Assembly (NCBI RefSeq): GCF_002252705.1
Contig: NZ_NQLA01000010.1
Coordinates: 1 to 64,000 of the forward strand
Source of the DNA: Vulcanococcus limneticus LL
GTDB taxonomy: Bacteria > Cyanobacteriota > Cyanobacteriia > PCC-6307 > Cyanobiaceae
Direction of reading: 5' to 3'
Length of the DNA stretch: 64,000 bases
A program made the translations under genes and the position numbers. How positions within the stretch are numbered: position 1 is the stretch's first letter; every line of letters begins with the position of its first letter. The notes beneath the pieces are model-generated. The model ran no database searches. It was not told the DNA's origin and worked only from the letters and a program-made list of their open reading frames with translations. Of the stretch, positions 1 through 15,561 are shown piece by piece.

Positions 1-10
1 CCGCACCTCC

Positions 11-31
11 GGAATGACAGCTCGTCATTCC
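11..31. repeat. Short perfect inverted repeat beside the broken end of brxC
   Basis: Arms ggaatgac (11-18) and gtcattcc (24-31) pair perfectly around a 5-nt loop. No T-tract follows on either strand, so it does not look like a standard terminator. It lies about 20 bp beyond the point where the brxC frame stops making sense, so it could be part of an inserted element end. This is inference only, because the left side is outside the window. Confidence 0.5.
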
Positions 32-49
32 ACCTTGTTCAACCTCTGA

Positions 50-520
50 TCAGGGCATTCGGGCCTCGGGATTTACACCACGCGAAGGGACGCGGCCGAA
101 ATGGACTCCATGCTCCGCCAGGGCCTCCTGAAGGGTCTCCAGCACAAACTGCCGGAGCGACATCGAGGAGTTAATCTCTGCGCGGATAACGACAAAATGT
201 CCCGCAATCTTCTCGGCTGCCTTGGCAACAGCAGGGTTTGTCAGCTTCTCTGCCAGTTCCGCCTTCTCAGCCACAGCGGAGATCACCGCTAACTGGTGAG
301 ACTTGCCTGTGCCGTAGTTGCCGACAACCAGAAGCCCCTTGTTATCCGCAGGCTCCTGGAATTGAAGTTGCTGGAAGATCACGCTTTCCAGCTGCTCACC
401 CATGCGATCCGAGATCACAAAGGTCTGCACCAGCCTGAGGGCTTGGTCGTCGCGTTCAGCTTCGTTGAGCTGAACAACCGTTTCAATCGGATCAAACTGA
501 ATCAGGTCTGAATATTTCAT
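50..520 (-). pseudogene. brxC: BrxC N-terminal fragment (type 3 BREX P-loop ATPase, broken)
   Basis: BrxC is the large P-loop ATPase of BREX phage-defence systems, normally well over 1000 residues. Only about 156 residues remain. The start is the ATG at 520, since an AGGAG sits about 7 nt upstream inside the end of brxF. The fragment opens MKYSDLIQFDPIETVVQL and has a Walker A, GNYGTGKS, at residues 67-74. The last dozen residues look foreign, and stops occur in all three frames between about 45 and 85, so this is truncation rather than one frameshift. It directly follows brxF on the same strand, which is the gene order of BREX type 3. Any remaining genes (pglX, brxH, pglZ, brxA) would lie left of the window. 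Family call from memory of brxF/brxC sequences. Confidence 0.65.
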
Positions 521-524
521 GTCT

Positions 525-1013
525 TCACGCTCCTGCCAGGCCGTGACCATCGGCGGTCACAATCTGCACGTCTTTGACGTCGAGGCGCCGATATTCTGGG
601 TGGTCGGGCGACCCGTAGATGAGCTTGCCTGCGGTGACCTCCCCTTGCCAGGCTGCGATCACCGTGCGGTTCCGCGAAGCACGCTGGAGCGCCATCATTG
701 GCTCTTGCTGCAAGGCAGGGTGGAAGAGCAAGCCAATGTTGTCCAACATGCTCACTGTCTGATTGCCTTGCTCTTCGATTAAGTCCCTGACGATGTCTGC
801 GGTTCGAAGTCGTCTTTGCTTGCTAGTGAGATCCAGCAGCCGCTCGGAAAGAACTTTGTTGAGGTTCAACAAGCTCCAGCCCTTGGCTACTTGGAGCTCG
901 TTGAAAGCACTGGTTTTTCCACTGCCAGGGGGACCAGCCACCAAGACCAGGCGATAAAAGCTCTTCGATGCCAGCTCAGCTTGCTCAGCGATGCCGCGTG
1001 CCAGGTCTCTCAT
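525..1013 (-). CDS. brxF: BrxF-like P-loop protein, type 3 BREX defence system
   Basis: A 162-residue protein with a Walker A, GPPGSGKT, at residues 27-34 and a hydrophobic strand ending in Asp (VSMLDNI, residues 87-93) as a likely Walker B. Length, motif placement and a following brxC match BrxF, a small ATPase found only in BREX type 3 operons. The frame is intact from an ATG at 1013, and it ends 4 nt before the brxC start, so the two were co-transcribed and probably translationally coupled. With brxC broken and no other BREX gene in the window, it is probably an orphan, although the operon could resume to the left. Alternative: a generic small AAA-like ATPase of another defence system. Confidence 0.7.
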   Translation of the reverse strand: MRDLARGIAEQAELASKSFYRLVLVAGPPGSGKTSAFNELQVAKGWSLLNLNKVLSERLLDLTSKQRRLRTADIVRDLIEEQGNQTVSMLDNIGLLFHPALQQEPMMALQRASRNRTVIAAWQGEVTAGKLIYGSPDHPEYRRLDVKDVQIVTADGHGLAGA

Positions 1014-1263
1014 GGGCAGGGTGGTACAGCCGATCTAGCCGGGACTCGTAATGAGCGGCCGTTGCTGTAGGCCGCAGCACCCAGTCTGCCGCCAGGGCAG
1101 CCCAGGCGCAGCCAGTCTTCTCCTGCTCCTACCCGCCAATGCCGAACCTATGCAGCCTGTGCATTGTTTTGGCCTACGGGCCATGCAACCGCAGCGCCTC
1201 CTCGTATTCCGCCCCGATCCCCAGGCCTGAGTCCTCATCAGGCATCAGTCGCTTCATGCCCAC

Positions 1264-1800
1264 GTGGATCAGACAGGCCAGGGCCAGGTCGCTCCAGCTG
1301 CCCGTCAGGGTCTTGAGGCTGCGGGAGCCCTCGATGGCACCAGCTACCTCACCCGCCATTCCTTTCAGCAGATAGGCGAACGCCAGCCCACCGTGGAGGA
1401 CCTGAGCCATCCGGCCTGGCAGTGGGACGAGCAGGCGGTGCAGAGCACCAACCAGCGGATGGAGGGCCTGGCCATCAACGCCTTGCTGGTGCAGCTCTAC
1501 CAGCCGGAACTGCTGACCACCGGCCCGGCTGCCAGGGTGCCCAGCGGCAAGGGCTTCTCGGCTGGTAGTGCGGACGACACCGGCGCCGTCACGCCCCAGG
1601 GCCCGGTGTGGATCGGCAAGGACTTACGGCTCGACCGCACCCCCAGGGCCCCATCAGAAGGGAGCGCGGCTGGCACCAGTAGCAGCGCCTCCCGTCGGCC
1701 CCACTGGCGCAGCGGCCACTGGCACACCGTGCTGCATGGCGAGAAGCGAAAATGCCGGCGGATGCAGTGGTTCCAGCCGGTGTACGTGGGGCTGAGCTGA
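1264..1800 (+). CDS. Unrecognised mobile-element protein with an HWRxGHW tail
   Basis: An open frame of 178 codons from a GTG at 1264. The frame is open back to 1231, so the start is unsure. I do not recognise the family. The middle part (ALLVQLYQPELL) looks like a real helix. The C-terminal 34 residues contain PHWRSGHWHTVLHGEKR followed by QWFQPVYVG. I recall a similar His/Trp/Arg-rich tail on proteins of phages, plasmids and cyanobacterial islands, of unknown role. A competing minus-strand frame at 1174-1410 overlaps the 5' part, so that part may not be coding. The gene may be a decayed remnant of a longer one. Confidence 0.45.
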   Translation: MDQTGQGQVAPAARQGLEAAGALDGTSYLTRHSFQQIGERQPTVEDLSHPAWQWDEQAVQSTNQRMEGLAINALLVQLYQPELLTTGPAARVPSGKGFSAGSADDTGAVTPQGPVWIGKDLRLDRTPRAPSEGSAAGTSSSASRRPHWRSGHWHTVLHGEKRKCRRMQWFQPVYVGLS

Positions 1801-1842
1801 GCACATCGACCCGGACACGACCCACACCCCCGAAGAAGAAAA

Positions 1843-1863
1843 CCCGGCGGGGATGCCGCCGGG
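1843..1863 (-). terminator. Rho-independent terminator of the minus-strand gene at 1872-2084
   Basis: The stem CCCGGCGG (1843-1850) pairs with CCGCCGGG (1856-1863) around a 5-nt loop. On the minus strand the hairpin is followed by a T-rich run (complement of 1832-1842, aagaagaaaa). It lies 8 bp past the stop of the minus-strand gene, which supports that gene being real. Confidence 0.7.
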
Positions 1864-1871
1864 CATCCACC

Positions 1872-2084
1872 TCAGAGCACCTGGACCCTGGCCTGAGGCC
1901 CGAGCACCTGCTGCTGATTGGAGGCCAGGATCAGCGCCTCCTCGCGGGGCACGTAGTGCGGCTCGGCCGATATGTGCCCCTCGCGATCGAGGAAGAGCAC
2001 CCTGAGGAGCTGGCCAGCGGCATCAAGCAGATGTACCGAGACGATGCGGATCGGGCAGGTGCGGCTGAGAGGAGCGGCGGCCAT
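1872..2084 (-). CDS. Small hypothetical protein
   Basis: About 70 residues from the ATG at 2084; a GTG at 2105 would add seven. I do not recognise it. The sequence is hydrophobic and strand-like in the middle (VSVHLLDAAGQLLRVLFLD) and ends acidic/polar, with no signal peptide and no clear motif. A good intrinsic terminator directly downstream supports its being expressed. It converges with the preceding plus-strand gene and lies inside the island. Confidence 0.5.
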   Translation of the reverse strand: MAAAPLSRTCPIRIVSVHLLDAAGQLLRVLFLDREGHISAEPHYVPREEALILASNQQQVLGPQARVQVL

Positions 2085-2105
2085 GGCTGTGCTGGCGAAC
2101 GACAC

Positions 2106-2952
2106 CGCCGTTCAGCCCCGGCGCCGCCTGTGCCACGCAAGGGGCGCGGAGCGCAGCGCAGCGACTCGCGTCAGCCCTTGCGCGGCGCGCAAGCCGGGGC
2201 AGGCCGGGTGGCGTGATCGCCAGCGCCATGGACCCACAACCCATCAAATCGATAGCCGCTGACGCAAGACCAGTCAGGTGTGCCGTACTGCGCCTAAACG
2301 GACGAACAATGCAGCCAACGCATAAAAATGACGGCCCAGAGAGACAGATTCAGACTTCACCGCAGCTAAGTAGACACATCTTGGATTGGCACACTGTCTA
2401 GGTATTGGTCTGGCGAGATTTTTTCAAGACCCATTGCGCCGCAAGGGATCTCAAGAATTCGGGATATTTTGGGTTATACGAGCCCGTAGTGCGCAGCCGG
2501 AAGAACTCGTGCACAGGACATTCACAACGCGCGAGTCTAAGCACCAAGGCCAAATTTTCGCAACATTTCACAACATCAGGCGCTTTGCCACCATCCCTGG
2601 TGGTACCTCCGCCTTGCACACCCCATCGGTGCTGCCAAACTGATTGGACCCCCGACAGGGACTGGCTCGGCTCGGTCTTCCGGGCAGGGAGCCCTGGGTC
2701 TTTCCAAAAGGAAAGGCTCAGGGGCTACTACCTCCCTGAGCCTCCCCTTGAAGGGTGCTCCTTCGTCAAGAGCTGCCTCATGGTGACTCATCAGAAGCCG
2801 GACGGCGAGTCCGGCGTACACAACTTCTCAATGGCTCATGGAGCCTTGACAGTTCCTGCATCGAGCCGCTCGATGCGTTCATTGGCTTGTTTAGAGGGTA
2901 GCCACTGCTCATCCTGCCAGCGCTCGGTCACTCCGGCAAGGAGGTGGCGGTG
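2106..2952. other. 847-bp stretch without a convincing gene, partly lower in GC
   Basis: From about 2230 to 2640 the base composition is visibly less GC-rich than the flanks, with several TTTT and AAAA runs, and no frame on either strand reads like protein over any length. A C/G-rich near-palindrome (cttgcgc ... gcgcaag) lies around 2180-2200. Tandem hairpins lie at 2700-2743. It may hold the promoter of the gene at 2953, remnants of older insertions, or a non-coding RNA. Confidence 0.5.
2700..2743. repeat. Two tandem perfect hairpins
   Basis: The first is ctttcc (2700-2705), loop aaaa, ggaaag (2710-2715). The second is AGGCTCAGGG (2714-2723), a 10-nt loop, CCCTGAGCCT (2734-2743), a perfect 10-bp stem sharing two bases with the first. 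A weaker cttgaagg/ccttcgtcaag pairing follows at about 2747-2771. No T-tract follows, so it does not look like a plain terminator. It lies about 210 bp upstream of the next gene. Confidence 0.55.
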
Positions 2953-3489
2953 ATGCCTGAGCCCCAGCCGACCCGCTGTTACCTGTACAAAGTCGAGGCT
3001 TACGGCGTCTCCGCTACGGGTGATCCCTATGCCGACGTTTTGCTGATCCATCCACAAGGCGGAACCTGCAAGGCCAAGGCCTTCAGCAGTTGCTTCGGCG
3101 ACCTCGATCAACTCCCTGCCTTCGTGGGGTCTGAGGTGAGCCTGCAGGTGACGCCCTCGGGTCTACAGCTCAGGCCCTTGGCAGAACAGGCCATGCCTGG
3201 GCTTGAGGGCTCAGTCGATCCGGCGCCTGACCAAGGCCTGACGGCGGATCGCTCGATCTGGAACTCCGATTGCGCGTTCTTTCCCCCCGAGGCAGACCCT
3301 TCCGAGCCGCCCCCCACCCCAGGCAGCTCCACAATCCCAACCGTGCAGGAAGTTGCCGCGACTGTGGCCCGCCTGGCCAGGGACTTTGAGCTGCCCACCG
3401 TCATGTGGGTCCACCTGCCGATTCGGCATGAGCGCTCCTCGGATCAGCAGCGTTGCCCCCAGGGGCACCACGTGCCCCCTGAGGCCTGA
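2953..3489 (+). CDS. Hypothetical island protein
   Basis: 178 residues from the ATG at 2953, chosen because AAGGAGG (2938-2944) lies 8 nt upstream; an in-frame GTG at 2944 overlaps that ribosome site and is unlikely. I do not recognise the family. The N-terminal 80 residues look like a beta-rich domain (CYLYKVEAYGV, YADVLLIHPQGG). A Pro/Ser-rich linker (about residues 100-125) and a short helical tail follow. No signal peptide or membrane segment. It converges on the Rad52-like gene, 29 nt away. Confidence 0.6.
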   Translation: MPEPQPTRCYLYKVEAYGVSATGDPYADVLLIHPQGGTCKAKAFSSCFGDLDQLPAFVGSEVSLQVTPSGLQLRPLAEQAMPGLEGSVDPAPDQGLTADRSIWNSDCAFFPPEADPSEPPPTPGSSTIPTVQEVAATVARLARDFELPTVMWVHLPIRHERSSDQQRCPQGHHVPPEA

Positions 3490-3518
3490 TGACCTGATGC
3501 AACCGCGCCGACTGCGGA

Positions 3519-4310
3519 CTACGCCGCCATCTGCTGCTGCACCAGGTAGGCCTCAATCCAGTCGTGGTGCCGCTTCTGCAGGATCCGATCGGCGATGGAA
3601 GTGGCATCTTCCGGTACCTGAAACCGCTTGCGGAAGGCTTTGGTGAAGCCCTCCAGCACCGGCCGGGGCAGACCGCGCAAGGTGGCGAGGATCTGGCGGG
3701 TGGTGGCCGAGTCGAGGGGCGTGAGGCCGGGATCGTTGTTGGCGCTTGGGGTGGTGGGCGAGGGGCGGCGATGGATGGATCGCGTGCCGTTGCTGGCGCT
3801 GGCAGGCAGGGGAGCGCTGCTGTTCCCTGTCGCCTGGGTGACCTCGCGTTGCTGCTTGTCGTAGAGGGCCAGGCCGAAGGGGTTCCCGAAGGTCATCAGC
3901 GCCCGCTTCATGGCATCGGTTTCGGCTTCCTTAAGTGCCGATTCGTGGGCCTGTCCCAGATCGGCGTCGATGCCGTGGCCGGCGCCGCAGCCCTCGCGGA
4001 TCAACTGGGCACCGCTGCCCTCACCCACGGTGATGCGCACCCGGGCGGTGTAGGTGACTCCCCAGCCGGGGCGTTGGTCTCGGCTCGTGCCTCTGGCACC
4101 GATGGTTCGTTCGCTTTGGTTGACGCAGCGGAGGGCGACGGTTTCGCGCTGCCAGCCGTCAAAGCCAAAGATCCTGTTCGCTTCCGCGATCACCTGCCAG
4201 CCCTCCAGATAGCTGACGGAGCTGCGGCCCTGCTCTCGCTGGCGCACCTTGGCGCGATCCAGCGGGGCGGAGAGGGCAGTGATCTGCTCGGGGGAAAAGG
4301 TGCAGGTCAT
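3519..4310 (-). CDS. Rad52/Rad22-type single-strand annealing protein
   Basis: 263 residues. The N-terminal half carries the Rad52 fold pattern: SYLEGWQVIAEANRIFGFDG, then TYTARVRITV, a GCGAGHG turn, and the conserved helix AHESALKEAETDAMKRAL followed by FGNPFGLALYDK. Such proteins coat single-stranded DNA and anneal complementary strands. In bacteria they occur mostly in phages and integrative elements. The Ser/Pro-rich middle (about residues 155-195) and helical C-terminus probably form a linker and partner-binding region. The Gp157-like gene upstream on the same strand supports a phage-type replication/recombination module. No partner exonuclease or SSB gene is visible nearby. Confidence 0.85.
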   Translation of the reverse strand: MTCTFSPEQITALSAPLDRAKVRQREQGRSSVSYLEGWQVIAEANRIFGFDGWQRETVALRCVNQSERTIGARGTSRDQRPGWGVTYTARVRITVGEGSGAQLIREGCGAGHGIDADLGQAHESALKEAETDAMKRALMTFGNPFGLALYDKQQREVTQATGNSSAPLPASASNGTRSIHRRPSPTTPSANNDPGLTPLDSATTRQILATLRGLPRPVLEGFTKAFRKRFQVPEDATSIADRILQKRHHDWIEAYLVQQQMAA

Positions 4311-4360
4311 GGCGACGAGGGGTGAGGTGGGGAAGTGTGTGGTGAATGCAGATGAGGCGA

Positions 4361-4600
4361 TCAGCTGGTCGCACCGTGAGGTGCGCTTGGCAGCGCAGCG
4401 GCTTCTGGGTCGAGGGGTTCGATCAGCACCCAGCAGGGCGGTTCACTGCAGTGGATGTGCTGGGGCGACGGGCGGCGGCTGTTCTTGCGGAGGATCGGCA
4501 GCACCCAGCTGCACAGCCGGGTCGACCAGATGTGCCCCCTGGGCCGGGTGCTGGTGGGGCTGTTGGTGGCGGTGGTACTGGCGTAGCTGGTGAGATCCAT
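4361..4600 (-). CDS. Small hypothetical protein in the recombination module
   Basis: 79 residues from an ATG at 4600, between the Gp157-like and Rad52-like genes and on their strand. The second half (HIHCSEPPCWVLIEPLDPEA) reads like genuine protein, with two Cys and a hydrophobic strand. The first 40 residues are Thr/Ser/Arg-rich and uncertain. I do not recognise it. It may be a small phage-type accessory protein or a chance frame. Confidence 0.4.
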   Translation of the reverse strand: MDLTSYASTTATNSPTSTRPRGHIWSTRLCSWVLPILRKNSRRPSPQHIHCSEPPCWVLIEPLDPEAAALPSAPHGATS

Positions 4601-4701
4601 GGCTCTGGTGATGGGGTGATCGGTGGCTGTGTGGGCTCTGGGGGGAGTGACGTGGGCCCGCTCCTGCAACAGGCCCGTGTGAAAGGGGGCCCTTGCCCCC
4701 C

Positions 4702-5325
4702 TCAGTGGATGCGCCAGCTGCGGCGGGAGAGGAGCTGGGCGCCTTCGATGTGGCGGCCGGCCTTGAGCGCTTCTTTGATGGCGGCCTTGTCGGGCTTGGT
4801 GGTGGTGGTGACGGCGAGCCACTCGGAATCGAGGGCCTCCTCGTCGTCGATCACGACAGCCGAGGATTTGCGGCTGCTGAGCTCGTGATTGGGGAACGAG
4901 AACCGTGTGGCCGCTGGCTGCAGCTGGGTGAGGACAAAGATCAGCGACTCCTCCAGGGCATCGGCCCGGCCGGCATCAGAGCGGGCCAGATCGGCGAGGC
5001 GCTTGGCCTGCTGCTGGCGGTAGGCGGCCTGACCGCGGAGGTGCTCGATCACCCAGCAGGTGGCATCGGCCTTGGCGGAGAGGGCCGCCTTGTTGCCCTC
5101 TTCTGCCAGCAGGGCGGCCTCAAGCTCGGCGAGGGCCAGGGCGCGCAGCTCGGGGTCATCCGTTTCCAGCTGCTCGGCCAGCTGGCCGATGGCGGTGGTG
5201 AGCTCCTGGGACTCGATGCCGAGCTGCCAGAGCGATCCGGAGCGCTGGAGGGAAAAGGCAGGACCAGAGGTATCCGGGGCCGAAGCAGGGGCGGCAACGG
5301 TGGGGATGGGAGTGAGAACGGCCAT
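4702..5325 (-). CDS. Siphovirus Gp157-like protein
   Basis: 207 residues from the ATG at 5325; an upstream in-frame TTG at 5376 is less likely. The middle is a long acidic helix rich in Ala, Glu and Leu (residues about 40-120), followed by the family-like end: RFSFPNHELSSRKSSAVVID, EWL, a TTTTKPDKAAIKEALKAG segment and IEGAQLL. This C-terminal pattern is what I know from the siphovirus Gp157 family, phage early proteins often encoded beside recombination genes and of poorly defined role. It fits the Rad52-like gene downstream. Confidence 0.75.
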   Translation of the reverse strand: MAVLTPIPTVAAPASAPDTSGPAFSLQRSGSLWQLGIESQELTTAIGQLAEQLETDDPELRALALAELEAALLAEEGNKAALSAKADATCWVIEHLRGQAAYRQQQAKRLADLARSDAGRADALEESLIFVLTQLQPAATRFSFPNHELSSRKSSAVVIDDEEALDSEWLAVTTTTKPDKAAIKEALKAGRHIEGAQLLSRRSWRIH

Positions 5326-5393
5326 GACGGTGAGAGGAGGAACAGGAAATGGAGAGGAGGCGCGACAGAACGCCAAAGGCTTGTGGTGACTGA

Positions 5394-5891
5394 TCAGGAG
5401 CGGGGAATACCAGCCGGAACGGCCCAGAGCCCGGCCGACGTGCTGACCTCGGCCACCGAGATCGGCACCGGCGAACGGGAAGCCATCCGGCGGGCCTGCT
5501 GCACGAGCGAGGCGGTGCCAACGCCACCGGGGAACGCCACCACCAGCACCGAGGCGATCGAGACCGGGGAGGTGTGGGCCACGGCCTGGGCAATGGCCTG
5601 CTCGAGCAACTCCCGATTACGGATTGGCCCAGCCGCCCGGCCATGCCGCTCCCACCGAGCTGGCATCACCACGGAGGACCAGCCCAGCTGATGGGCAGCG
5701 CGGCCAATGGAGGCATCGGCCCCACGGGCACCGCCATGGAGCAGCAGATGCACCAGCCGGCCGCCGCTGCGGGCCAGCAGCTCAGCAGCCACACGCTGAT
5801 GAGGCCAAGCCAGATCCCGGCCGCCCCCGGCGGCGATCACCAGAGAGCGGGCCGGGGCAATCTCCGGCCGCGATTGAATACATAAAGCCAT
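5394..5891 (-). CDS. DUF2493/YspA-like SLOG-superfamily protein
   Basis: 165 residues from the ATG at 5891 (a longer frame to 5930 exists). Motifs run in the expected order: AAGGGRD near the N-terminus, LLHGGARGADASIGRAA in the middle, PARWERHGRAAGPIRNRELL, then VLVVAFPGGVGTASLVQQA. These are the Rossmann-like nucleotide-binding features of the DUF2493 (YspA) branch of the SLOG superfamily, proteins proposed to bind nucleotide-derived ligands, common on phages, plasmids and islands. Ligand and role here are unknown. It is the first gene of the minus-strand phage-like cluster. Confidence 0.8.
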   Translation of the reverse strand: MALCIQSRPEIAPARSLVIAAGGGRDLAWPHQRVAAELLARSGGRLVHLLLHGGARGADASIGRAAHQLGWSSVVMPARWERHGRAAGPIRNRELLEQAIAQAVAHTSPVSIASVLVVAFPGGVGTASLVQQARRMASRSPVPISVAEVSTSAGLWAVPAGIPRS

Positions 5892-6674
5892 GGATTCAGT
5901 TGCCAGAAGGACAACTGATCGGGGCATCACAACTGCTCAGCGATACGCAGGGGTGATGGCGAGACCAGGGGACGAGGTTGCCGCCGGCGATGGGCTCAGG
6001 GCCTTTGGCGCAGCCCTTATTCTACCAGTACAAACGCACTCTCTGGCGGGCAGAGCGACTGCAGGGCAATGGATCTGCCCAAAGCAAAGGCATTCGCTGG
6101 CGGCCTTGGAAACTGATCAGCAAGACCGCCAAATTCAGCCCTGTATGCCCAGCTGGCCGCGCAGCCGCGCGAGGAGGCCTGGGGCCCACCTCTGCCCCCA
6201 TTGATGCGGGCGAATGCCCGGCCACCGCAGCCGCGGGAAACGAGCCCTGCCCACCACCTCACCACCGGCCTCGGAGCGGAGGGCGGCGGCGGCTGGCCGA
6301 TGCACGCCACGGCGCAGCCGTGGCACGCTGAAGGACGGCCGTCGCCGACCGGACACACTGCTGAAACCGCGGGGCCAGACGTTGGATAACTCAGCCCGCC
6401 AATCTCTCGGGTGCGCTGGATTCAACTTTCAGATCTTGCTTATACCTCGCGGTCTTGGCGAAGGATTGCCAAGGGCAGAGGAATACTTGGCTTGCGTAAA
6501 GAGAACGCCCTTCACAGAGCAGCCCTCGCCCCTTCGCCTTACGTCCGCCGGCTCCAACTCGCGCCTTCTCACAACAGGGGAGAAGGCCAAAACCTTCTCA
6601 CAGACCTTCTCACATCCAAGCCTGAGGGCACATGAGACCCAAGAGAGCGCAACCAGTTCCGCTAATCAACCGAG
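5892..6674. other. Terminal 783 bp of the island without a convincing gene
   Basis: Open frames exist on both strands but all are Pro/Arg/Ala-rich shadows with no recognisable pattern. The stretch probably contains the promoter of the DUF2493 gene and, towards 6560-6615, the short direct repeats listed separately. No integrase gene is present, so the recombinase must be at the other island end or lost. Confidence 0.5.
6564..6615 (+). repeat. Three direct copies of CCTTCTCACA near the att site
   Basis: Copies lie at 6564-6573, 6593-6602 and 6605-6614. The last two form a 12-bp tandem repeat (accttctcacag at 6592-6603, then accttctcacat). They lie 60-110 bp before the tRNA fragment. Repeats at this distance from a tRNA attachment site are typical of integrase arm-binding sites. 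The function is inferred; only the repeats are seen. Confidence 0.6.
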
Positions 6675-6720
6675 AAGCTTCCCAAGCTGAACGTCGCCGG
6701 TTCGAGCCCGGTCACCCGCT
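6675..6720 (+). other. 3' fragment of a tRNA-Gly(CCC) gene, island attachment site
   Basis: The 46 nt contain an anticodon loop TTCCCAA with the 3' half of the stem (GCTGA), a variable region, a T-arm GCCGGTTCGAGCCCGG and an acceptor 3' strand CACCCGCT. The matching 5' half (GCGGGTG, D-arm) is absent: bases before the anticodon loop do not pair with the stem. So the gene is split at the anticodon, the usual crossover place for tyrosine recombinases. With mobile genes on the left and ordinary genes on the right, this is the displaced original 3' end; a complete tRNA-Gly should stand at the other end of the island. Confidence 0.8.
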
Positions 6721-6902
6721 TTCAGTCCAGACCTGAAGGAATTCCCTGAAAGCCTTCCACGGAGTGGCGTTAGCGATGACACGAGCGCTCCTGCCACTCT
6801 CGCTGACCCCAAACCCTTGCCCTGACCGACCGGAGTGGGAGGTCTGAGGCAGGATTCGTCTCCTTGGTGGGTGTGACGGGAGGTCGCGGCAGCAGAGCCG
6901 CT

Positions 6903-7184
6903 TCAGGCCCTCGTCTTAATCACCTGCAGCACTTGGGGGCCAATGCTTCCAGCCCGACGCTCGCAGTCCAGGGCCAGGAGAATGTGGCGCGCCGATTCCT
7001 CTATCGCGCCGCGGGCCGCAGCCTGCTTGGCCTCGGCCTCATGGGCTGCCGCCTGATGGGTCAGGTCGTGGCGTTGCTGTCCAGCGAGAGGACGGGGGGC
7101 AGCCAAGGGGTGCTGCCCCAAGCGGGGATGGTGTGCAACCACAGCTGATGGAGCAGCTGCTGGTGATGGAATCGTCTCCGGCAT
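6903..7184 (-). CDS. Hypothetical helical protein
   Basis: 93 residues. The first 40 are Pro/His/Ala-rich and uncertain. The second half is a convincing amphipathic helix (AEAKQAAARGAIEESARHIL, then LDCERRAGSIGPQVLQVI). I do not recognise the family. A later start is possible. It is the first gene right of the attachment site, so it probably belongs to the host chromosome. Confidence 0.5.
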   Translation of the reverse strand: MPETIPSPAAAPSAVVAHHPRLGQHPLAAPRPLAGQQRHDLTHQAAAHEAEAKQAAARGAIEESARHILLALDCERRAGSIGPQVLQVIKTRA

Positions 7185-7283
7185 CAGCGGATCCGTAAAT
7201 CCAACGATCGTTGATTGGAATGTAACGCACCAGCAAGATGCGAGGTGTGGTGCACCCAGCGCATCACGAAATCCACACCCATT

Positions 7284-7520
7284 TCAGGTGCCAGGTTCTT
7301 CGCGGTTGCCGCCGAGGGCTGCGATCTGGGCCCTCAGCTGCTCGGAGCGCTGCTGATCGCCACGGGTCACAGCCACCGCCAGGGCGAATTCCAGCTTCTC
7401 CAGCTGGTGATCGCCCTCAGCGAAGGAGCGGCAGGCGGGCGTGGGGCGCGCGGCACCCGGCTGGGACGGGTGCTGGGCGGGGCGCTGATTCACGAAGCTG
7501 GAGCTGTTGAAGCTGGCCAT
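7284..7520 (-). CDS. Small hypothetical protein
   Basis: 78 residues from the ATG at 7520, with a purine-rich stretch upstream. The N-terminus is Ser/Pro-rich (MASFNSSSF). The C-terminal half is a helix pair (HQLEKLEFALAVAVTRGDQQ, then SEQLRAQIAALGG). No membrane segment. It lies 38 nt downstream of the coiled-coil gene on the same strand and is probably co-transcribed. Family not recognised. Confidence 0.6.
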   Translation of the reverse strand: MASFNSSSFVNQRPAQHPSQPGAARPTPACRSFAEGDHQLEKLEFALAVAVTRGDQQRSEQLRAQIAALGGNREEPGT

Positions 7521-7558
7521 GGTTCGCTTTCTTCCCATTGTGGCACCGCCCACCAGGG

Positions 7559-7870
7559 TCAGGCGGCCAGGGGCGTGGCGTCGTCCGCATCCACGGATCG
7601 AAGTGGAGCCCCATCAAGCTCCAGGCCCGCCGCCGAGGGCTCCGAATCGGCCAGCAGGGCCCGGCAATCCGCCAGCAGCAGCTCCACCGACTCCAGGGAG
7701 CGCAGCTCGGCCGGATCGGGCTCCACCGGCGCCGCCACGGCCTCCAGCTGCAGCTGCAGCACAGCCAAGCGCTGTTCGAGCTTCACCAGCCGCTGGGACA
7801 GGGCCGCCACAGTCTGGGCCAGATCCTCGGTGGTGCGGGTGATGCGGAACGAAACCGATTCGGGACTCAT
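7559..7870 (-). CDS. Coiled-coil hypothetical protein
   Basis: 103 residues from the ATG at 7870, starting MSPESVSFRITRTTEDL. Residues 10-60 form a strong heptad pattern (LAQTVAALSQRLVKLEQRLA) typical of a coiled coil. The rest is acidic with Leu-rich helices. No catalytic motif. Probably a two-gene unit with the small protein downstream. It diverges from the AbrB-like gene, with 93 bp between starts. Confidence 0.65.
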   Translation of the reverse strand: MSPESVSFRITRTTEDLAQTVAALSQRLVKLEQRLAVLQLQLEAVAAPVEPDPAELRSLESVELLLADCRALLADSEPSAAGLELDGAPLRSVDADDATPLAA

Positions 7871-7963
7871 CGGATCAAAGCGGTAGCGCCGATCACACCA
7901 CAGAACCGTCAGCGACTCAAGCCTTCTCCCAGACTGGACAGCTTCCTCCCCGTCTGGCCCCGG

Positions 7964-8482
7964 ATGCACCCCCCGCTGAATTTGCTGGTGTATCTGCTGG
8001 CTGGCCTGGCCGGCGGGCTGCTGGCCCTGCGCACCGGCATCCCCGCCGCACCGCTGGCGGGAGCCCTGCTCGGGGCCGGCCTGGTGAGCATGAGCGGCCG
8101 GCTTGAGACGGCCCAGTGGCCCCTGGGCACGCGCACCCTGCTGGAGATCGGCATCGGCACCGTGATCGGCACTGGCCTGACCAGCACCGCCGTGGCGGAG
8201 CTGCGGCAGTTGTGGCGGCCGGCCCTGCTGATCACCGTGACCCTGGTGGCCACGGGTCTGGTGGTGGGCCTGTGGTGCAGCCGCCTATTGGGCATCGATC
8301 CGGTGGTGGCCCTGCTGGGCGCCGCCCCGGGGGGCATCAGCGGCATGAGCCTGGTGGGGGCCGAGTTCGGCGTGGGAGCGGCGGTCGCGACCCTGCACGC
8401 GGTGCGGCTGATCACCGTGCTGCTGGTGTTGCCGCTCATGGTGCGACTGGTGCTGTCGCTGCAGGGGTCCCAGTCGGGTTAA
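7964..8482 (+). CDS. Half-length AbrB-type (PF05145) membrane protein
   Basis: 172 residues, almost all in hydrophobic segments, starting MHPPLNLLVYLLAGLAGG from the ATG at 7964. The conserved stretches IGIGTVIGTGLTSTAVAELR and LLGAAPGGISGMSLVGAEFG match the AbrB-type membrane family, which is unrelated to the AbrB DNA-binding regulator. Family members are usually a tandem duplication of about 340 residues; this has one unit, so it must dimerise or pair with another half. Substrate is not known; a putative permease or ammonia-monooxygenase-related label is common in databases. Confidence 0.75.
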   Translation: MHPPLNLLVYLLAGLAGGLLALRTGIPAAPLAGALLGAGLVSMSGRLETAQWPLGTRTLLEIGIGTVIGTGLTSTAVAELRQLWRPALLITVTLVATGLVVGLWCSRLLGIDPVVALLGAAPGGISGMSLVGAEFGVGAAVATLHAVRLITVLLVLPLMVRLVLSLQGSQSG

Positions 8483-8561
8483 CCGGCCCTGGACAGGCCC
8501 AGCGCCCTGGATACGGTGGGCCCCTTCCCTCACCCCCGCCGGCTCCCGAGCCGCCGCCCCC

Positions 8562-9017
8562 ATGGCCCACCCCGCCATCCGCCGCGCCCTCGCCGCGCTG
8601 CTGCCCGCTGGCCTTGGCGCCGTGGCCACGGCCCTGCCGCTGCTGCCGGCGGCCGCCGACACACCCGCTGACACACCCGCCGGCAAAGGTGCCCAGGTGT
8701 ATTGCTTCATGCGCGGCGCCGGCAACAACCACGAAGTGAGCTGGACTGCCGCCTATTCCCTGATCAAGCGCCAGAGCGCCAGCCTGTTCAAGACGTCGCC
8801 GGAACATGCCGCGGTGATGATCACCGAGGCGGTGGTCCAGAACCCTGGCACCTTCCCAGACTGCGGCCGCTACCTGGGCAGCCTGTTCGAGCGGGCTGCC
8901 ACCCCGCCTGAGGCCGCGGCCAGTCCCGCCGCCGGCAGCACTCCCTCGACCCAGGGCAGCGGCCCCACGCGCATTCCCACCAGCGGCGTCACCCGCAACG
9001 ATCGCTACAACTACTGA
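8562..9017 (+). CDS. Secreted picocyanobacterial protein (DUF6554-like)
   Basis: 151 residues with an N-terminal signal peptide (RRALAALLPAGLGAVATALP, cleavage near residue 32). The core GAQVYCFMRGAGNNHEVSWT ... IKRQSASLFKTSPEHAAVMI ... NPGTFPDCGRYLG is a pattern I recall from a conserved Synechococcus/Prochlorococcus family, tentatively DUF6554. Two Cys may form a disulfide. The tail after residue 115 is Pro/Ser/Thr-rich and disordered. Exported, role unknown. The lipoprotein gene follows after one base. Confidence 0.7.
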   Translation: MAHPAIRRALAALLPAGLGAVATALPLLPAAADTPADTPAGKGAQVYCFMRGAGNNHEVSWTAAYSLIKRQSASLFKTSPEHAAVMITEAVVQNPGTFPDCGRYLGSLFERAATPPEAAASPAAGSTPSTQGSGPTRIPTSGVTRNDRYNY

Positions 9018-9018
9018 G

Positions 9019-9426
9019 TTGGCATCCCAATCCCCGCGAGCCCAGCGACGGCCAGACCGCCAGCGCCCCCTGGCCCTGATGGTGCTGGGCACTGCCCTGG
9101 GGGGCCTGCTCGGCGGATGCGCGGCACCACCGCCACCGCAGGAGCAGGTCAAGGGCCCGGCGCGGGATGACTGTCTGCGGGAGGTGCGCCTCGACGCTCT
9201 CCAGACCGCCTTGGAGCGCTGCGATGCCGTGGTGGCCGCCTATCCCCGCGACCCCCAGCCGCGCAACGAGCGTGCCCTGCTGCAGTCCCTGGCGGGCAAC
9301 CGGGTGGCCGCCTGCAGCGACAGCAGCGCCGCCGAGGTCCTGCTGCGCCAGGCCACGCCTGGACGCCGCGGCGACCCCCAGCTGGTGGAGGAGATCCGCA
9401 TCCGCGCCGCCGGCTGCCGCGGCTGA
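9019..9426 (+). CDS. Putative lipoprotein
   Basis: 135 residues from a TTG at 9019, one base after the previous stop. This start gives an Arg-rich n-region, a hydrophobic core (LALMVLGTALGGLLGG) and a lipobox LGGC, so Cys34 would be lipidated; an ATG at 9079 would leave almost no n-region. The mature part resembles TPR-like helices (ALQTALERCDAVVAAYPRDP, then NERALLQSLAG) with four further Cys. It was probably co-transcribed with the upstream secreted protein. Function unknown. Confidence 0.65.
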   Translation: MASQSPRAQRRPDRQRPLALMVLGTALGGLLGGCAAPPPPQEQVKGPARDDCLREVRLDALQTALERCDAVVAAYPRDPQPRNERALLQSLAGNRVAACSDSSAAEVLLRQATPGRRGDPQLVEEIRIRAAGCRG

Positions 9427-9469
9427 GACCAGGCCGTTGCGATTGGGGGCTCACCCCAGGTCACCCTGC

Positions 9470-11047
9470 TCACCATTCGGCGAGCAGCCGCCGCACCATC
9501 TGCGGGAACGACTGGCGGCGCAGGGCACTGGAGTGGCGCCCCAGCAGCACCTCGATGCGCTCGGCCTTGCTGGCGATCAGGTCGTCCACCAGCTGGTCGG
9601 CGACGCCAAGCTGCAGCCAGTGGCACTGCAGCGGACCGCCCATGCCGATGCGATGGCAGCGGTCCTCCGCCTGCTCCGCGTCGCCGGGGGTCCAGGGGCG
9701 CTCCAGCAGCACCACGTGGCGCGCCCGGTGCAGGGTGAGGCCCAGCCCTCCCACGCCGAAGGTGCTGATCAGCAGCGGATCGGCGCCGGCCTGGAAGCGC
9801 TCGACCCTCGCCTGGCGCTCGGCCGGACGCACCCGGCCCGTCAGCAGCTCGCCGCCCAGCCGGGCCTGCAACAGCTCGGCGGCGGCCACGAATCCGCTGA
9901 ACACCAGCACCGGCTCGCCCCGCCCCAGCAGTTCCCGCACCAGGCGGGTGGCGGCGGGAAGCTTGTATTCGGCGGCGATCTGGCGCAGGGCCGTGAACAC
10001 GGCCAGGGCCTCGGCATCGCGCCGCACCAGGCCGGCGGCAGCGCGGCGGCGGTAGTCGTCCACCGCCAGATCGAGCCGGTGCTGGAAGCCCTGGCCCTCG
10101 CCGGCACTGAGGATCACGGGGTGGTGGAGCCGCTGCTTGGGCGGCAGGTCCAGGCAATCGGCCTTGCGGCGGTGCAGAAGCAGCGGTCGGGTGAGCCGCT
10201 GCAACTCCTTCAGGCCAGTGGCCCCCAGGGCCTGCCAGTGGCGCCGGCCACCGGGGCCCTCGCGCCAGTGGCCCTGGCAGTAGCGCTCCTCGTAGGCACG
10301 CTGGTCGGCGGCAAGGGGATGGCCGATGGCGGCCAGCAGGGGGAACAGCTGCACGGGGCGACCGTTCTTCATCGGCGTGCCGGTGAGCAGCCAGCAGGCC
10401 CGCAGGCGCGGATGGCGGGCCAGCCGCAGGAAGGCCCGGGTGCGGGTGGCGCCCAGGTTCTGGGCGTAGTGGGCCTCATCGGCGATCAGCACGGTGCCGG
10501 CGGGGGGCAGCTCGGCCGGCAGGCGGGCCCAGCTGAACAGCTCGATGGCCAGCTCCAGGGCCGCCGCCTCCTGGCGCCAGTGGGCGTGGAGCCCGGCGGG
10601 GGCCACCACCGCGATGCGGCCGCCACTGGCCCGGGCCAGGGTGCGGGCCGCCACCAGGGCGGTGAGCGTCTTGCCCAGGCCCATGGCGTCGGCCAGCAGC
10701 GCCCCGCGGCGGGCCAGCAGCCAGCGCACCGCCGAGCGCTGGTGGGCAAACAGGTGGCGGCCATCGGGCAGGGGCGCCTGGAGATCGGCCTCGGCCACCA
10801 GCTGCCGGTGCGGCGGCAGGGGCGGCAACGGCTGGCGCAGCCAGGCCAGCCACTGGGCCAGCTCCGGATCGATCGGAAAGCGGGAAGCGAAGCGCCGTTC
10901 CAGCTCGTGGGCAGCCTCCAGGGGAAAATCCCAGCAACGCTGGCGGGAGCGCCAATGGCCCCGGGGCCGCACGGCCTGCAGCTGCGCCTGGGTCACGGCG
11001 TCGAAGGGGGTGACCACCTCAATGGAGCCAGAGGCGCCCAGCCGCAT
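9470..11047 (-). CDS. SNF2-family helicase with HARP-like N-terminus (SMARCAL1-like)
   Basis: 525 residues from the ATG at 11047; an upstream open extension looks like noise. Residues 1-55 (GSIEVVTPFD, then RSRQRCWDFPLEAAHELERR) resemble the HARP-like module of SMARCAL1-type annealing helicases. Helicase motifs follow in order: I DAMGLGKT, II DEAH, III LTGTPMKNG, then the C-terminal lobe with STFGVGGLGLTL and VI QAEDRCHRIG. ATP-driven DNA translocation or strand annealing is expected. The HNH nuclease gene stands divergently next door, 241 bp away. Confidence 0.85.
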   Translation of the reverse strand: MRLGASGSIEVVTPFDAVTQAQLQAVRPRGHWRSRQRCWDFPLEAAHELERRFASRFPIDPELAQWLAWLRQPLPPLPPHRQLVAEADLQAPLPDGRHLFAHQRSAVRWLLARRGALLADAMGLGKTLTALVAARTLARASGGRIAVVAPAGLHAHWRQEAAALELAIELFSWARLPAELPPAGTVLIADEAHYAQNLGATRTRAFLRLARHPRLRACWLLTGTPMKNGRPVQLFPLLAAIGHPLAADQRAYEERYCQGHWREGPGGRRHWQALGATGLKELQRLTRPLLLHRRKADCLDLPPKQRLHHPVILSAGEGQGFQHRLDLAVDDYRRRAAAGLVRRDAEALAVFTALRQIAAEYKLPAATRLVRELLGRGEPVLVFSGFVAAAELLQARLGGELLTGRVRPAERQARVERFQAGADPLLISTFGVGGLGLTLHRARHVVLLERPWTPGDAEQAEDRCHRIGMGGPLQCHWLQLGVADQLVDDLIASKAERIEVLLGRHSSALRRQSFPQMVRRLLAEW

Positions 11048-11288
11048 CAGGCAGCGGGCGGGAGCGGCAGGCCTGGACGGGCTGAGAGGGCGGGCCAAAC
11101 GGGGAACACGACGCCGGAGGAGCTCGCCGGCGGGCCAGTCGCTGGACGCGCCGCCAGCCAATTTAAGGCCCACAGCTGCAAAGACAAGTCAGCCTGAACG
11201 TCCTGGTCCCTATCGGTCAGAACGGCATCCTTCGACACATTGACAAGACAGCGACTCCAGGCAGACTCCCCGCAACCGAGTTGATCGG

Positions 11289-11735
11289 ATGCACGCCAGG
11301 GATGCGGTTTTCCTTGAGGATCTGTGCCCCAAACTTCGTGTTCGCCGCTGGAGACAATCTCTCCACACATTTACGGATCAAAGCTGCATCTACTGCGGCA
11401 ATCCATCCGAATCAATTGACCATGTGCTGCCGCGCAGCCGCGGCGGCCTGAGCGTCACCGAGAACTGCGTGCCGGCCTGCCTGGCCTGCAACGGTCGCAA
11501 GAGTGACACCGACGCCTTCGACTGGTATCGGCGCCAGCGCTTCTACGATCCCCGCCGCGCCATGGCGATCCGGGCCTGGATCGACGGGGATCTGCGGCTG
11601 GCCCTGCGGTTGCTGCAGTGGGCCAGCCCCCAGGCCAGCCCAACGCCGGGCCGCCCCAGCGCCAACCAGGGGCGAACCGCCAACCGGAAAACCAGGGACG
11701 GCGGCGACCCTGGCTGGGCGTTCCAGGCCGCCTGA
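11289..11735 (+). CDS. HNH endonuclease-family protein
   Basis: 148 residues. CIYCG (Cys pair) and CLACN (Cys pair) flank the HNH core SIDHVLPRSRGGLSVTENCV, so both the zinc site and the catalytic DH-N-type residues are present, followed by NGRKSDTDAFDWYRR. The C-terminal 40 residues are Pro/Arg/Asn-rich. Such stand-alone HNH proteins are widespread in cyanobacteria; target unknown. A TTGACA at 11240-11245 could be a -35 element, but I see no good -10. Confidence 0.85.
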   Translation: MHARDAVFLEDLCPKLRVRRWRQSLHTFTDQSCIYCGNPSESIDHVLPRSRGGLSVTENCVPACLACNGRKSDTDAFDWYRRQRFYDPRRAMAIRAWIDGDLRLALRLLQWASPQASPTPGRPSANQGRTANRKTRDGGDPGWAFQAA

Positions 11736-11740
11736 GCGCC

Positions 11741-12001
11741 CTACCAGACGCGACAGGCGGCCAGGCCATTGTGGCGCTGGCAGATGGCAGCTTGGGCCGA
11801 GGGCTGCTCCGGCGCCAACAGGGCCGCCGCCGCCAACAGGGCCGCCACCAGCCAGGCCAGGGGCCAGACACCGGCCCTGGCCCGAGGGCCGGCACGCCGG
11901 GTGCACCAGCGCCGACCCGCCAGGGATCCAGCGCTGGGGACCGGGCCGCGGATGGGGCCGCGCAGCGGAGCGAGGGGAGTAGAGAGACAGGACGCGGCCA
12001 T
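11741..12001 (-). CDS. Small membrane-anchored or secreted protein
   Basis: Up to 86 residues. The C-terminal half is the believable part: one hydrophobic segment (PLAWLVAALLAAAALLAP) followed by QPSAQAAICQRHNGLAACRVW, which looks like a signal-anchor plus a short exported tail with two Cys. The 40 residues before it are Arg/Pro-rich and may be upstream of the true, unclear start. It converges on the HNH gene with 5 nt between stops. Confidence 0.45.
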   Translation of the reverse strand: MAASCLSTPLAPLRGPIRGPVPSAGSLAGRRWCTRRAGPRARAGVWPLAWLVAALLAAAALLAPEQPSAQAAICQRHNGLAACRVW

Positions 12002-12106
12002 CGATCGGGATCGCGGTGTGATACATCTGTACTCATGGCTTCCTGGGCTGTCAACCCGGCGACCGGCGCGCCTGCGGCGATGAACCCCTCAACAACCTCG
12101 GCGACG

Positions 12107-13087
12107 ATGGGTCAGGCGCTGCCGGCGGGCGCCTCGGTGCTGGTGCTCGGGGGTGGCTACACAGGCCAGCGCTTCGCCGCCGCCGTGGGGTCGCTCGGGG
12201 CCAGCGTGACCCTCACCCACCGGGGCCCGGAACCGCCGGAAGCGGACGCCCCAGGCCGGCGCTGGCTGCGCTTTGATCCGGCCGCCGGGGCCATGCCCAC
12301 GGCCGAACAGCTGGCGGGCACCAGCCATGTGCTGGTGACGATCCCACCCGATGGCGAAGGGCGGGACCCCGCCCTGGACGCCCTCGGCCCAGTGCTGCGG
12401 CAGCTGCCCCTGCAGTGGCTGGGGTACCTCTCCACCACCGGCGTCTACGGCGATCTTCAGGGAGCCTGGGCCGACGAGGGCACACCGCCCAACCCGGGTC
12501 TGGGGCGCAGCCGGGCCCGCCTGGCCTGCGAGCAGGCCTGGCTGGGCAGCGGCCTGCCGGTGCAGAGCTTCCGGCTGCCTGCCATCTACGGCCCGGGCCG
12601 CTGCCCCTTCCAGAATCTGCTGACGGGCAAGGGGCGGCTGGTGCACAAGCCGGGCCAGGTCTTCTGTCGCATCCACGTGGACGACATCGTCGGGGCGCTG
12701 CTGCACTGCCTGGCCCTGCCGCCCCAGCACCGCCCCGCGGTGGTCAACGTGAGCGACGACGTCCCCTGCCCCTCCAGCGAGACCCTCGGCTATGGCGCCC
12801 ACCTGCTGGGCTGCCCGCTGCCGCCGGCGCAGCGCTATGCGGACGTGGTCGCCAGCATGGGCCCGATGGCCCTGAGCTTCTGGTCCGAGAACCGGCGAGT
12901 CAGCAACCGGCTGCTCTGCCAGGGGCTGGGCTATCGGCTGCGCTATCCCAGCTACCGGGAGGGCTTCCAGGCCTCCCTGGCGGAGGAGCGGCAGACGGCC
13001 TCTGCCCAGGCCAACGCGCCGTCGTCGACCGCTGGCCGGCCAGCCGCCGGGCCCGGGTCTGCTCAGGGCCCGGCGGCGCCGGCCTGA
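12107..13087 (+). CDS. Atypical SDR / NAD-dependent epimerase-like protein (YeeZ-like)
   Basis: 326 residues from the ATG at 12107; ATGs at 12080 and 12035 are in frame, and I chose the one closest to the conserved fold. VLVLGGGYTGQRFA is the Rossmann GxxGxxG loop. STTGVYGD carries the Ser and Tyr of the SDR region, but the usual YxxxK lysine is not in place, as in atypical SDRs of the YeeZ group. RLPAIYGPGR and FCRIHVDDIVGALLHCL continue the pattern. Binds NAD(P) or has lost catalysis; substrate unknown. The Ala/Pro-rich last 30 residues are disordered. Confidence 0.8.
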   Translation: MGQALPAGASVLVLGGGYTGQRFAAAVGSLGASVTLTHRGPEPPEADAPGRRWLRFDPAAGAMPTAEQLAGTSHVLVTIPPDGEGRDPALDALGPVLRQLPLQWLGYLSTTGVYGDLQGAWADEGTPPNPGLGRSRARLACEQAWLGSGLPVQSFRLPAIYGPGRCPFQNLLTGKGRLVHKPGQVFCRIHVDDIVGALLHCLALPPQHRPAVVNVSDDVPCPSSETLGYGAHLLGCPLPPAQRYADVVASMGPMALSFWSENRRVSNRLLCQGLGYRLRYPSYREGFQASLAEERQTASAQANAPSSTAGRPAAGPGSAQGPAAPA

Positions 13088-13242
13088 CTGCGGTCCGCCG
13101 GGCCGGTGGACCGGCCTGGATCCGGCACGAAGGGCACGCCGGCATCGTGGAGCAGACGGTCCCAGTGCAGCTCCACCCAGCCGTTGCGCACCCCGCTCAC
13201 CAGGGCGAACAGCAAGCCACCGAGAAGCAACCAGCGCACCAT
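13063..13242 (-). CDS. Small conserved membrane protein beside pdxA
   Basis: 59 residues from the ATG at 13242: MVRWLLLGGLLFALVSGVRN is one transmembrane segment, followed by GWVELHWDRLLHDAGVPF and a Pro/Gly-rich tail. I recall similar tiny proteins next to pdxA in picocyanobacteria. Its start codon and the pdxA start codon sit on the two strands of one CCATGG. Its 3' end overlaps the end of the SDR gene by 25 bp. Function unknown. Confidence 0.6.
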   Translation of the reverse strand: MVRWLLLGGLLFALVSGVRNGWVELHWDRLLHDAGVPFVPDPGRSTGPADRSQAGAAGP

Positions 13243-14287
13243 GGATCCATCACCGACCAGCCCAGACGCTAGGCAAGGGCGCATCGCCCTCAGCTTGGGG
13301 GATCCCGCCGGGATCGGCGCGGAGGTGACCCTCAAGGCCCTGGCGGCCCTGGCCCGCAGAGAAGGGCCCGAGAGCTGGACCGGCTCGAAGGGCCCGCTGC
13401 TGGTGGGGTGCCGTCGCTGGCTGGAGGACACCTACCGCAGCCTGCGGGCAGGGGGCGAGGAGCCCCTGCTGGACCCGGCGGAGCTGGAGCTCCTTGATCT
13501 GCCGCTGGGGGAGCCAGTGCCGCCGGGGGCAGGCGGTGCCGCCAGCGGAGCGGCCAGCTTCGCCTGGCTGACAGCCGCCACAGAGCTGGTGCAGCAGGGC
13601 CATTGCCGCTCCCTGGTGACCGCGCCGATCGCCAAGCACGCATGGCATGCCGCTGGCCACGTCTATCCCGGCCAGACGGAACGCCTGGCGGAGCTGGCCG
13701 GTGTGGCAGAGGCCTCGATGCTGTTCACGGCCCGCTCCCCCAACGGCGGCTGGCGGCTGAACACCCTGCTGGCCACCACCCACATCCCCCTGGCCGCCGT
13801 GCCCGCCGCGCTCACTCCGGAGCGGGTGGAGGCCAAGCTGGCCGTGCTCCTGACCTTCTGCCAACGCTTCCGACCGCAGCCGCGCCTGGCTGTGGCAGGG
13901 CTCAATCCCCACGCCGGCGAGGCGGGCCAGCTGGGCCGGGAGGAGCAGGATTGGCTGATCCCACTGCTGCAGCGCTGGCGGTCACGGCACCCTGAGGCGG
14001 AGCTGCTGGGCCCCCTGCCACCCGATACCTGCTGGCTGGAGGCGGGGGCGGCCTGGGGGGGCAGAAGCGGGAAGGCTGCCGCCGATGGCTATCTGGCGCT
14101 CTACCACGACCAGGGACTGATCCCGGTGAAGCTGCTGGCCTTCGATCAAGCGGTCAACACCAGCCTGGGGTTGCCGTTCCTGCGCACCTCCCCGGACCAC
14201 GGCACGGGCTTCGCCATCGCCGGCCACGGCATCGCCCGTGGGGCGAGCATGGCAGCGGCCCTGGAGACTGCCCGGGAGCTGGGCTGA
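13241..14287 (+). CDS. pdxA: 4-hydroxythreonine-4-phosphate dehydrogenase
   Basis: PdxA oxidises 4-phosphohydroxy-L-threonine in the DXP-dependent pyridoxal phosphate pathway. At 348 residues it has family length. Visible motifs: SLGDPAGIGAEVTLKAL, TAPIAKHAW, YPGQTERLAEL, ATTHIPLAAVPAAL, GLNPHAGEAGQLGREEQDW, then LYHDQGLIPVKLLAFDQAVN and RTSPDHGTGFAIAG. The metal-binding His residues are in the TTH, YHDQG and PDHGTG stretches. Start at the ATG 13241 is shared with the opposite-strand small gene; no other good start is nearby. It converges on accB. Confidence 0.95.
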   Translation: MDPSPTSPDARQGRIALSLGDPAGIGAEVTLKALAALARREGPESWTGSKGPLLVGCRRWLEDTYRSLRAGGEEPLLDPAELELLDLPLGEPVPPGAGGAASGAASFAWLTAATELVQQGHCRSLVTAPIAKHAWHAAGHVYPGQTERLAELAGVAEASMLFTARSPNGGWRLNTLLATTHIPLAAVPAALTPERVEAKLAVLLTFCQRFRPQPRLAVAGLNPHAGEAGQLGREEQDWLIPLLQRWRSRHPEAELLGPLPPDTCWLEAGAAWGGRSGKAAADGYLALYHDQGLIPVKLLAFDQAVNTSLGLPFLRTSPDHGTGFAIAGHGIARGASMAAALETARELG

Positions 14288-14308
14288 GCCCAGGATCGCC
14301 AGATGGGA

Positions 14309-14776: not shown

Positions 14777-14781
14777 GGCAA

Positions 14782-15342: not shown

Positions 15343-15561
15343 TCCGGCAGAACGGGATCGCCGGATTGTACGGCTGTGCCAGAGTCCAGACAGAGACAGG
15401 GGCTGGCCATGGATCCCAGGCAGGCGGCGGCGGAATCCAGTACAGCCCGGGCGCTGTCGGGACCTCTCCACGCGGCGCGGGGAGCGGTCCCGACAGTGTC
15501 TGCAGCCACCGACATGGTGCCTTGGTGGACAGCGGGTCTTCGCGCCCTTACCCCCTGGGGA

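Follow-up and report, generated by a model that had tools for sequence, protein, structure and literature searches.

What does half of a tRNA gene border when it stands by itself in a bacterial chromosome, and what kind of DNA lies behind it? In the 64,000-nucleotide stretch of Vulcanococcus limneticus LL analyzed here (the window; contig C52 of a 3.55-Mb assembly of 160 contigs), a sequence-only reading had noticed the 3′ half of a tRNA-Gly(CCC) without its 5′ half. It had proposed that this fragment marks an island boundary, with an attachment core of up to about 46 bp at positions 6675–6720 and an intact tRNA-Gly at the far end. The 5′ half is indeed missing: ARAGORN called no tRNA in the window. 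Rfam searches of the region returned neither a tRNA nor any other credible match. A 42-nt query (≤3 mismatches) found two copies in the assembly, C52:6679–6720 and C142:525–566, both with 0 mismatches, and the reversed-pattern control found none. When a 22-base piece was searched with 3 mismatches allowed, the window gave one match and 100 shuffles a mean of 0.01 (one shuffle matched). The second copy of the core lies in an intact tRNA-Gly(ccc) at C142:525–596, whose 3′ end is identical over 46 nt, as the reading had anticipated. The exact repeat between C52 and C142 also has the proposed length of 46 bp; its coordinates had been off by one base, and the attR core spans 6676–6721 (+ strand); it begins at tRNA position 28 and ends one T beyond the discriminator base. 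After turning C142 round, the order is tRNA, 524 bp, contig end // C52:1–6675, fragment, chromosome. The 3′ end of the tRNA is therefore present at both borders as an exact, direct 46-bp repeat.

The left flank (on C142) and the right flank (in the window, from position 6897 or a later one) surround one full-length tRNA-Gly in all six island-free relatives from which the site was fetched (G005, G012, G013, G014, G015 and G016). The closest of them, G016, shows 93.7% identity on the left side (10.7 kb) and 91.5% on the right, where its available sequence extends for 1.7 kb. Ordinary chromosome to the right of the island (6897–20000, + strand, the stretch compared) begins within ∼145 bp after the intact tRNA-Gly in G016, and in a more diverged form it also follows the tRNA at the other five sites. 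On the other side of the core, positions 1–6675 gave no match to the six island-free sites among the matches listed (at least 150 bp). This segment is the right end of the inserted element, and it matches in blocks (73–90% identity) the right end of an element in Synechococcus sp. HJ21-Hayes (G006). The exact repeat, the island-free relatives and the integrase beside the intact tRNA (see below) support the proposed boundary, which is sound and ordinary in kind. The interest lies in the element that it bounds, which is recurrent, apparently mobile, head-encoding and equipped with swappable defence cargo.

The ∼175 bp immediately right of the core (6722–6896) are not common to G016 beyond the first three bases. 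Within them, positions 6722–6755, on the chromosome side, resemble the left end of another such element (cf. locus L087), unlike the sequence downstream of the tRNA in the closest island-free relative, and they may be a remnant scar left by a second element that has since been lost. Sequence resembling a degraded element left end was also seen after the tRNA-Gly sites of loci L029 (G022) and L032 (G011).

A bare 45-nt 3′ half was found besides the intact tRNA in 3 of 24 same-genus genomes (G004, G006 and G007), and in each the fragment begins at tRNA position 28, as in the window. The G004 fragment carries two changes, and G007 has two copies. The idea that the displaced fragment preserves the old host tRNA sequence was considered and is not supported, since the two changes of the G004 attR differ from those of island-free G014. 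In HJ21-Hayes both sites lie on one contig, 60,667 bp apart, and delimit a complete element. The metagenome-assembled genome of Vulcanococcus sp. Clear-D1 (G007) holds two 56,093-bp units in tandem, with zero differences between them (G007:C18:84275–196532). Its contig is named in the SPAdes style (NODE), so that the second unit may reflect a circular form; the arrangement may be a genuine tandem insertion or may have arisen when a circular form was assembled. The third complete element, G081, is an IMG/VR contig of 49,900 bp with the same 99 bp at both ends. It contains the joined attP, in the order element right end, core (one change), element left end, integrase. Such a junction is expected either of the circle formed after excision or of a tandem array. 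Both the tandem copies of G007 and the closed contig G081 could come from tandem integration rather than from a free circle.

An integrase was expected next to the intact tRNA, and in relatives it starts 126 bp after it. The integrase scan of the species genomes identified 28 loci, and in 11 of them the gene starts 126 bp past the core end. ARAGORN found upstream an intact tRNA-Gly(CCC) at 12 loci, a tRNA-Arg(TCT) at 10 and no tRNA at 6; one of these six (L084) is the G007 tandem junction, which has the core only. All full-length integrase loci with ≥84% identity have tRNA-Gly, or are the G007 tandem junction. Among the 12 loci with 55–57% identity a tRNA was found in 9, and it was always tRNA-Arg. 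Intermediate loci were L101 (67%, Arg), L102 (78%, Gly, cut by the contig end) and L104 (69%, Gly), and partial matches were L100 (64%, no tRNA), L105 (59%, no tRNA) and L107 (46%, Gly). The protein matches the PHROGs integrase and no Pfam model; we take it to be of the tyrosine type from its C-terminal motif.

At 22 of the 28 loci the 9-mer CCTTCTCAC occurs as a doublet directly ahead of the integrase. The same 9-mer is present in three copies near the right element end in the window, at 6564–6572, 6593–6601 and 6605–6613 (all + strand), and beside the integrase start at the opposite element end. These repeats are predicted to be arm-type sites of the integrase.

The integrase beside the intact tRNA is whole in G006 and G007. 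In V. limneticus LL just its first 99 residues were found, cut by an insertion sequence at an end of C142 that has no partner. When the missing part was sought in the assembly by DNA and protein, residues 1–99 by the tRNA and three other, distant matches were returned. Because the catalytic part of the integrase was not found in the assembly, the element of this strain is probably immobile.

The element is spread over four contigs (C142, C158, C62 and C52) whose pieces total 51,131 bp, gaps excluded, and it is likely ∼51 kb long. C158 (36,912 bp) is colinear with the HJ21-Hayes element except for one ∼330-bp block and internal repeats, with most blocks at 72–91% identity, and C62 (7,020 bp) matches the next stretch of that element at 80–87%. 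We infer the C142–C158 and C158–C62 joins from gene order. C62 is linked to the window by an 8-bp target duplication, which occupies positions 98–105 here. To its left, positions 1–97 belong to the terminus of an insertion sequence, which interrupts the island at the contig break. The identical 97 bp are found at nine contig ends, the end of the window included, and seven of the nine can be matched to an opposite end by a common target of 8–10 bp.

The insertion sequence has split brxC. The N-terminal part (DUF6079/PglY; PF19557 E 2e-55, BrxC E 5e-59) lies at 50–550 (− strand), and C62 continues the gene with the remainder (profile positions 140–1238). The BREX ATPase gene brxF lies at 525–1013 (− strand; PADLOC BrxF E 2e-41). 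The type 3 BREX gene set comprises brxF, brxC, pglXI, the brxHII helicase, pglZ and brxA. Genes for BrxF, BrxC (split), PglX, a helicase, PglZ and BrxA are all present on C52, C62 and C158; for the helicase the top-scoring PADLOC model is one described as BrxHI, ahead of the BrxHII model. Beyond pglX, a partial AAA ATPase gene (L017:6453–6935, on C62) resembles PADLOC HEC-02A, in a stretch without a match in the G006 element. The remaining genes discussed here from the right end of the element are all on the − strand: a Rad52-type single-strand annealing protein, which is part of the backbone (3519–4310; PF04098 E 1.8e-42), a Siphovirus Gp157/Mu Gam-like protein (4702–5376; PF05565 E 5.7e-22, phrog_253 E 1.9e-24) and a YspA-type SLOG protein (5394–5930; PF10686 E 2.1e-7).

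The BREX-3 genes occupy a slot of variable content. They are shared by the V. limneticus LL and HJ21-Hayes elements, whereas the slot of G007 holds HmaB-, HmaC- and PifA-like proteins with a helicase (best match PLD_Helicase, also HmaA), and that of G081 McrBC and type I restriction-modification genes. Two of the large cargo frames in the complete elements encode, respectively, a helicase and a restriction enzyme of type I. The backbone on both sides of the slot is alike.

What the backbone encodes bears on the nature of the element. The HJ21-Hayes element encodes a helicase, a primase, a large terminase, a portal, a scaffold and a major head protein, and homologues of all are present on C158. 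When the four element sequences (own pieces, G006, G007 and G081) were compared with the complete cyanosiphoviruses PSS2 and S-CBS2 (cut-off E 1e-3), they shared with these phages the large terminase, an adjoining sigma-like protein, the portal, the scaffold and the major head protein. PSS2 is also matched by a small gene near the integrase and, weakly, by the integrase itself; a post-head protein weakly matches an S-CBS2 endonuclease. No relative of a tail, tape-measure, connector, small terminase or endolysin protein of the two phages was found in the four sequences at this cut-off; a few short matches on opposite-strand or unannotated frames were set aside. We consider it likely that this element, with its BREX-3 genes and its phage head and packaging genes and no recognizable tail, owes its insertion to its own integrase and is a satellite that forms its own capsid and would borrow its tail from another phage.

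The identity of the terminase, portal, scaffold and major head protein to those of cyanosiphoviruses (26–42%) would also suit a complete temperate cyanophage whose tail genes are too divergent to be recognized. Two further findings point the same way. A LysM backbone protein weakly matches a baseplate-hub family (E 5e-5), and several backbone proteins belong to no named family; these include a 172-aa protein and two, 230 and 353 aa long, that are encoded past the major head protein. The AlphaFold model of the 172-aa protein is poor (pLDDT 41). The 353-aa protein (L077:8909–9970, on C158) has repeats of ∼44 residues; matches to a WD40 propeller were not relied on, and from a low-confidence AlphaFold model (pLDDT 57) it is perhaps a beta-propeller.

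Several results argue against a complete prophage. The comparison was extended to eight element sequences: the own pieces, G006, G007, G081, G082, G087 and stretches from FGCU6 and HJ21-Hayes C12. Three of these are complete (G006, G007 and G081), and the remaining five are partial sequences (fragments, stretches or assembly pieces). The FGCU6 stretch yielded no more than the scaffold and the major head protein. Again no tail, tape-measure, connector, small terminase or endolysin relative of PSS2 or S-CBS2 was detected in the eight sequences. In the positive control the tail proteins of the two phages found each other (tape measure 2e-23, tail 4e-38, gp024 9e-72). PHROGs searches with 48 proteins, a few small backbone proteins being left out, gave a single tail-category match, the weak baseplate hub. 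The tape measures of the comparison phages have 956 and 1,885 aa, and no unnamed open frame of such size exists in the three complete elements: each frame of ≥500 aa is a called, named gene or overlaps such a gene in a different frame. Relatives of the two tail proteins tested are confined to 8 phage records, all from the same phage group, so tail genes of another lineage could be missed. With this narrow reach of the tail family in mind, a tail module is not recognizable in the elements at the sequence level, and we regard the complete prophage as unlikely.

The profile of the major head protein matches 39 of 201 family genomes, this one included, and 35 of 131 good ones; some of the 39 may be fragments or phage-like elements of other kinds. 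A profile built from the tail proteins S-CBS2 gp024 and PSS2 gp079 matches 0 of the 201, a weak contrast with the head profile given the narrow family, the more divergent profile and the lack of any positive genome. A second major head protein gene was found in the own genome (G000:C47:5053–5937), which indicates that this genome probably holds another element. The head module itself may be incomplete. Neither a small terminase subunit nor a head-tail connector nor a head protease was recognized in the elements, and the prohead protease inhibitor family gave a weak match (E 0.001).

A tail-less head module might also be what is left of a prophage that lost its tail, decays and now persists as an island only. 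Such decay would fit the integrase and brxC of V. limneticus LL, both broken by an insertion sequence, and a precedent is on record: previous work described the P-SS2-like islands of Synechococcus RS9917 as relic or degraded prophages (PMC2784084). The head genes, in contrast, are under purifying selection. When the genes of the own element were compared with the others, dN/dS was 0.00–0.16 for the major head protein (7 comparisons), 0.08–0.17 for the terminase (6), 0.08–0.12 for the portal (5) and 0.07–0.28 for the scaffold (7). Constraint is weaker on the proteins that come after the major head protein (up to 0.57). Five comparisons with a stop in the alignment had been dropped (portal 1, helicase 2, primase 1, protein after the portal 1). 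The tail-less gene set recurs, dN/dS of its head genes is low, and it is found as identical tandem units and in a closed-attP contig; the set is thus maintained and appears to move, which makes a decaying remnant a quite improbable explanation.

A cargo transposon of the tycheposon type, with the head genes as incidental cargo, would account for the tRNA site, the integrase at one end and the swapped cargo. Of the 20 named genomes behind the integrase loci, 13 have the major head protein and 7 do not (22 of the 28 loci are covered), and some relatives may lack the head module. Tycheposons have their own type of tyrosine recombinase and hallmark genes. They are reported to be tRNA-associated and 4–200 kb in size (PMC10872708), and PMC11389934 places them among proposed satellite families. 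By these descriptions, the tycheposons of Prochlorococcus and other aquatic bacteria resemble the elements studied here in tRNA integration, integrase and variable cargo; they differ in that the hosts here are Cyanobium, Synechococcus and Vulcanococcus, the sites are tRNA-Gly(CCC) or tRNA-Arg(TCT) and the cargo is anti-phage. In the own element, G006, G007 and G081, it is the defence genes that vary, and the head genes are part of the common backbone, so that head genes carried as mere cargo seem highly improbable.

The satellite that borrows tails has counterparts elsewhere. Capsid-forming phage-inducible chromosomal islands (cf-PICIs) are reported to depend on a helper for tails only (PMC10690885). 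The elements share cf-PICI-type features, namely their own major head protein, portal and large terminase with no tail genes recognized; like the cf-PICIs and the Streptomyces satellites MulchRoom and MiniFlayer, they have their own head and packaging genes. In contrast to these systems, the elements described here are 50–61 kb long and picocyanobacterial, with cyanosiphovirus-related head genes and a large defence slot. They also differ from cf-PICIs in that the small terminase, head-tail connectors and protease were not found.

A further comparison is with the tRNA-bounded islands of RS9917, which are reported to carry a P-SS2-like terminase, integrase, sigma factor and structural genes, some of them with Rad52 (PMC2784084). 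As far as this description allows, those islands and cyanophage P-SS2 have the terminase, integrase, sigma factor and structural genes in common with our elements. The islands are described as relic or degraded, whereas the elements analyzed here have constrained, recurrent head genes and no recognizable tail module. Genomes of Prochlorococcus and marine Synechococcus are reported to contain few prophages or none, and two intact ones are named in freshwater Synechococcus (PMC6157547). An Antarctic relative reportedly has short (≤19 kb) prophage remnants and BREX type 1 genes (PMC9716671). Among the openly licensed publications listed, no such element at tRNA-Gly(CCC) was found in titles and the beginnings of abstracts.

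We infer from these comparisons how a satellite of this kind might operate: (i) the integrase would recombine the 46-bp attP core with the tRNA gene, which would keep the tRNA whole at attL and leave the bare 3′ half at attR; (ii) the scaffold and major head protein of the element would form a head, and its terminase and portal would pack the excised circle into it; (iii) a helper cyanosiphovirus would supply the tail; and (iv) the defence cargo of the slot would guard either the host or the element from attack by other phages.

The recurrence of a head-encoding element without a recognizable tail suggests that some apparently broken prophages may be working satellites in need of a helper tail. 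Since the elements carry whole defence systems as cargo, they could move anti-phage immunity between picocyanobacteria. We offer a wider proposal tentatively, with slightly less than even confidence: that picocyanobacteria, long thought to be nearly free of prophages, carry a widespread family of capsid-forming 50–61-kb satellites of cyanosiphoviruses, in which branches of a single integrase family choose tRNA-Gly(CCC) or tRNA-Arg(TCT) and whose swappable anti-phage cargo (BREX-3, Hma-like plus PifA-like, or McrBC plus type I restriction-modification) would make them carriers of immunity.
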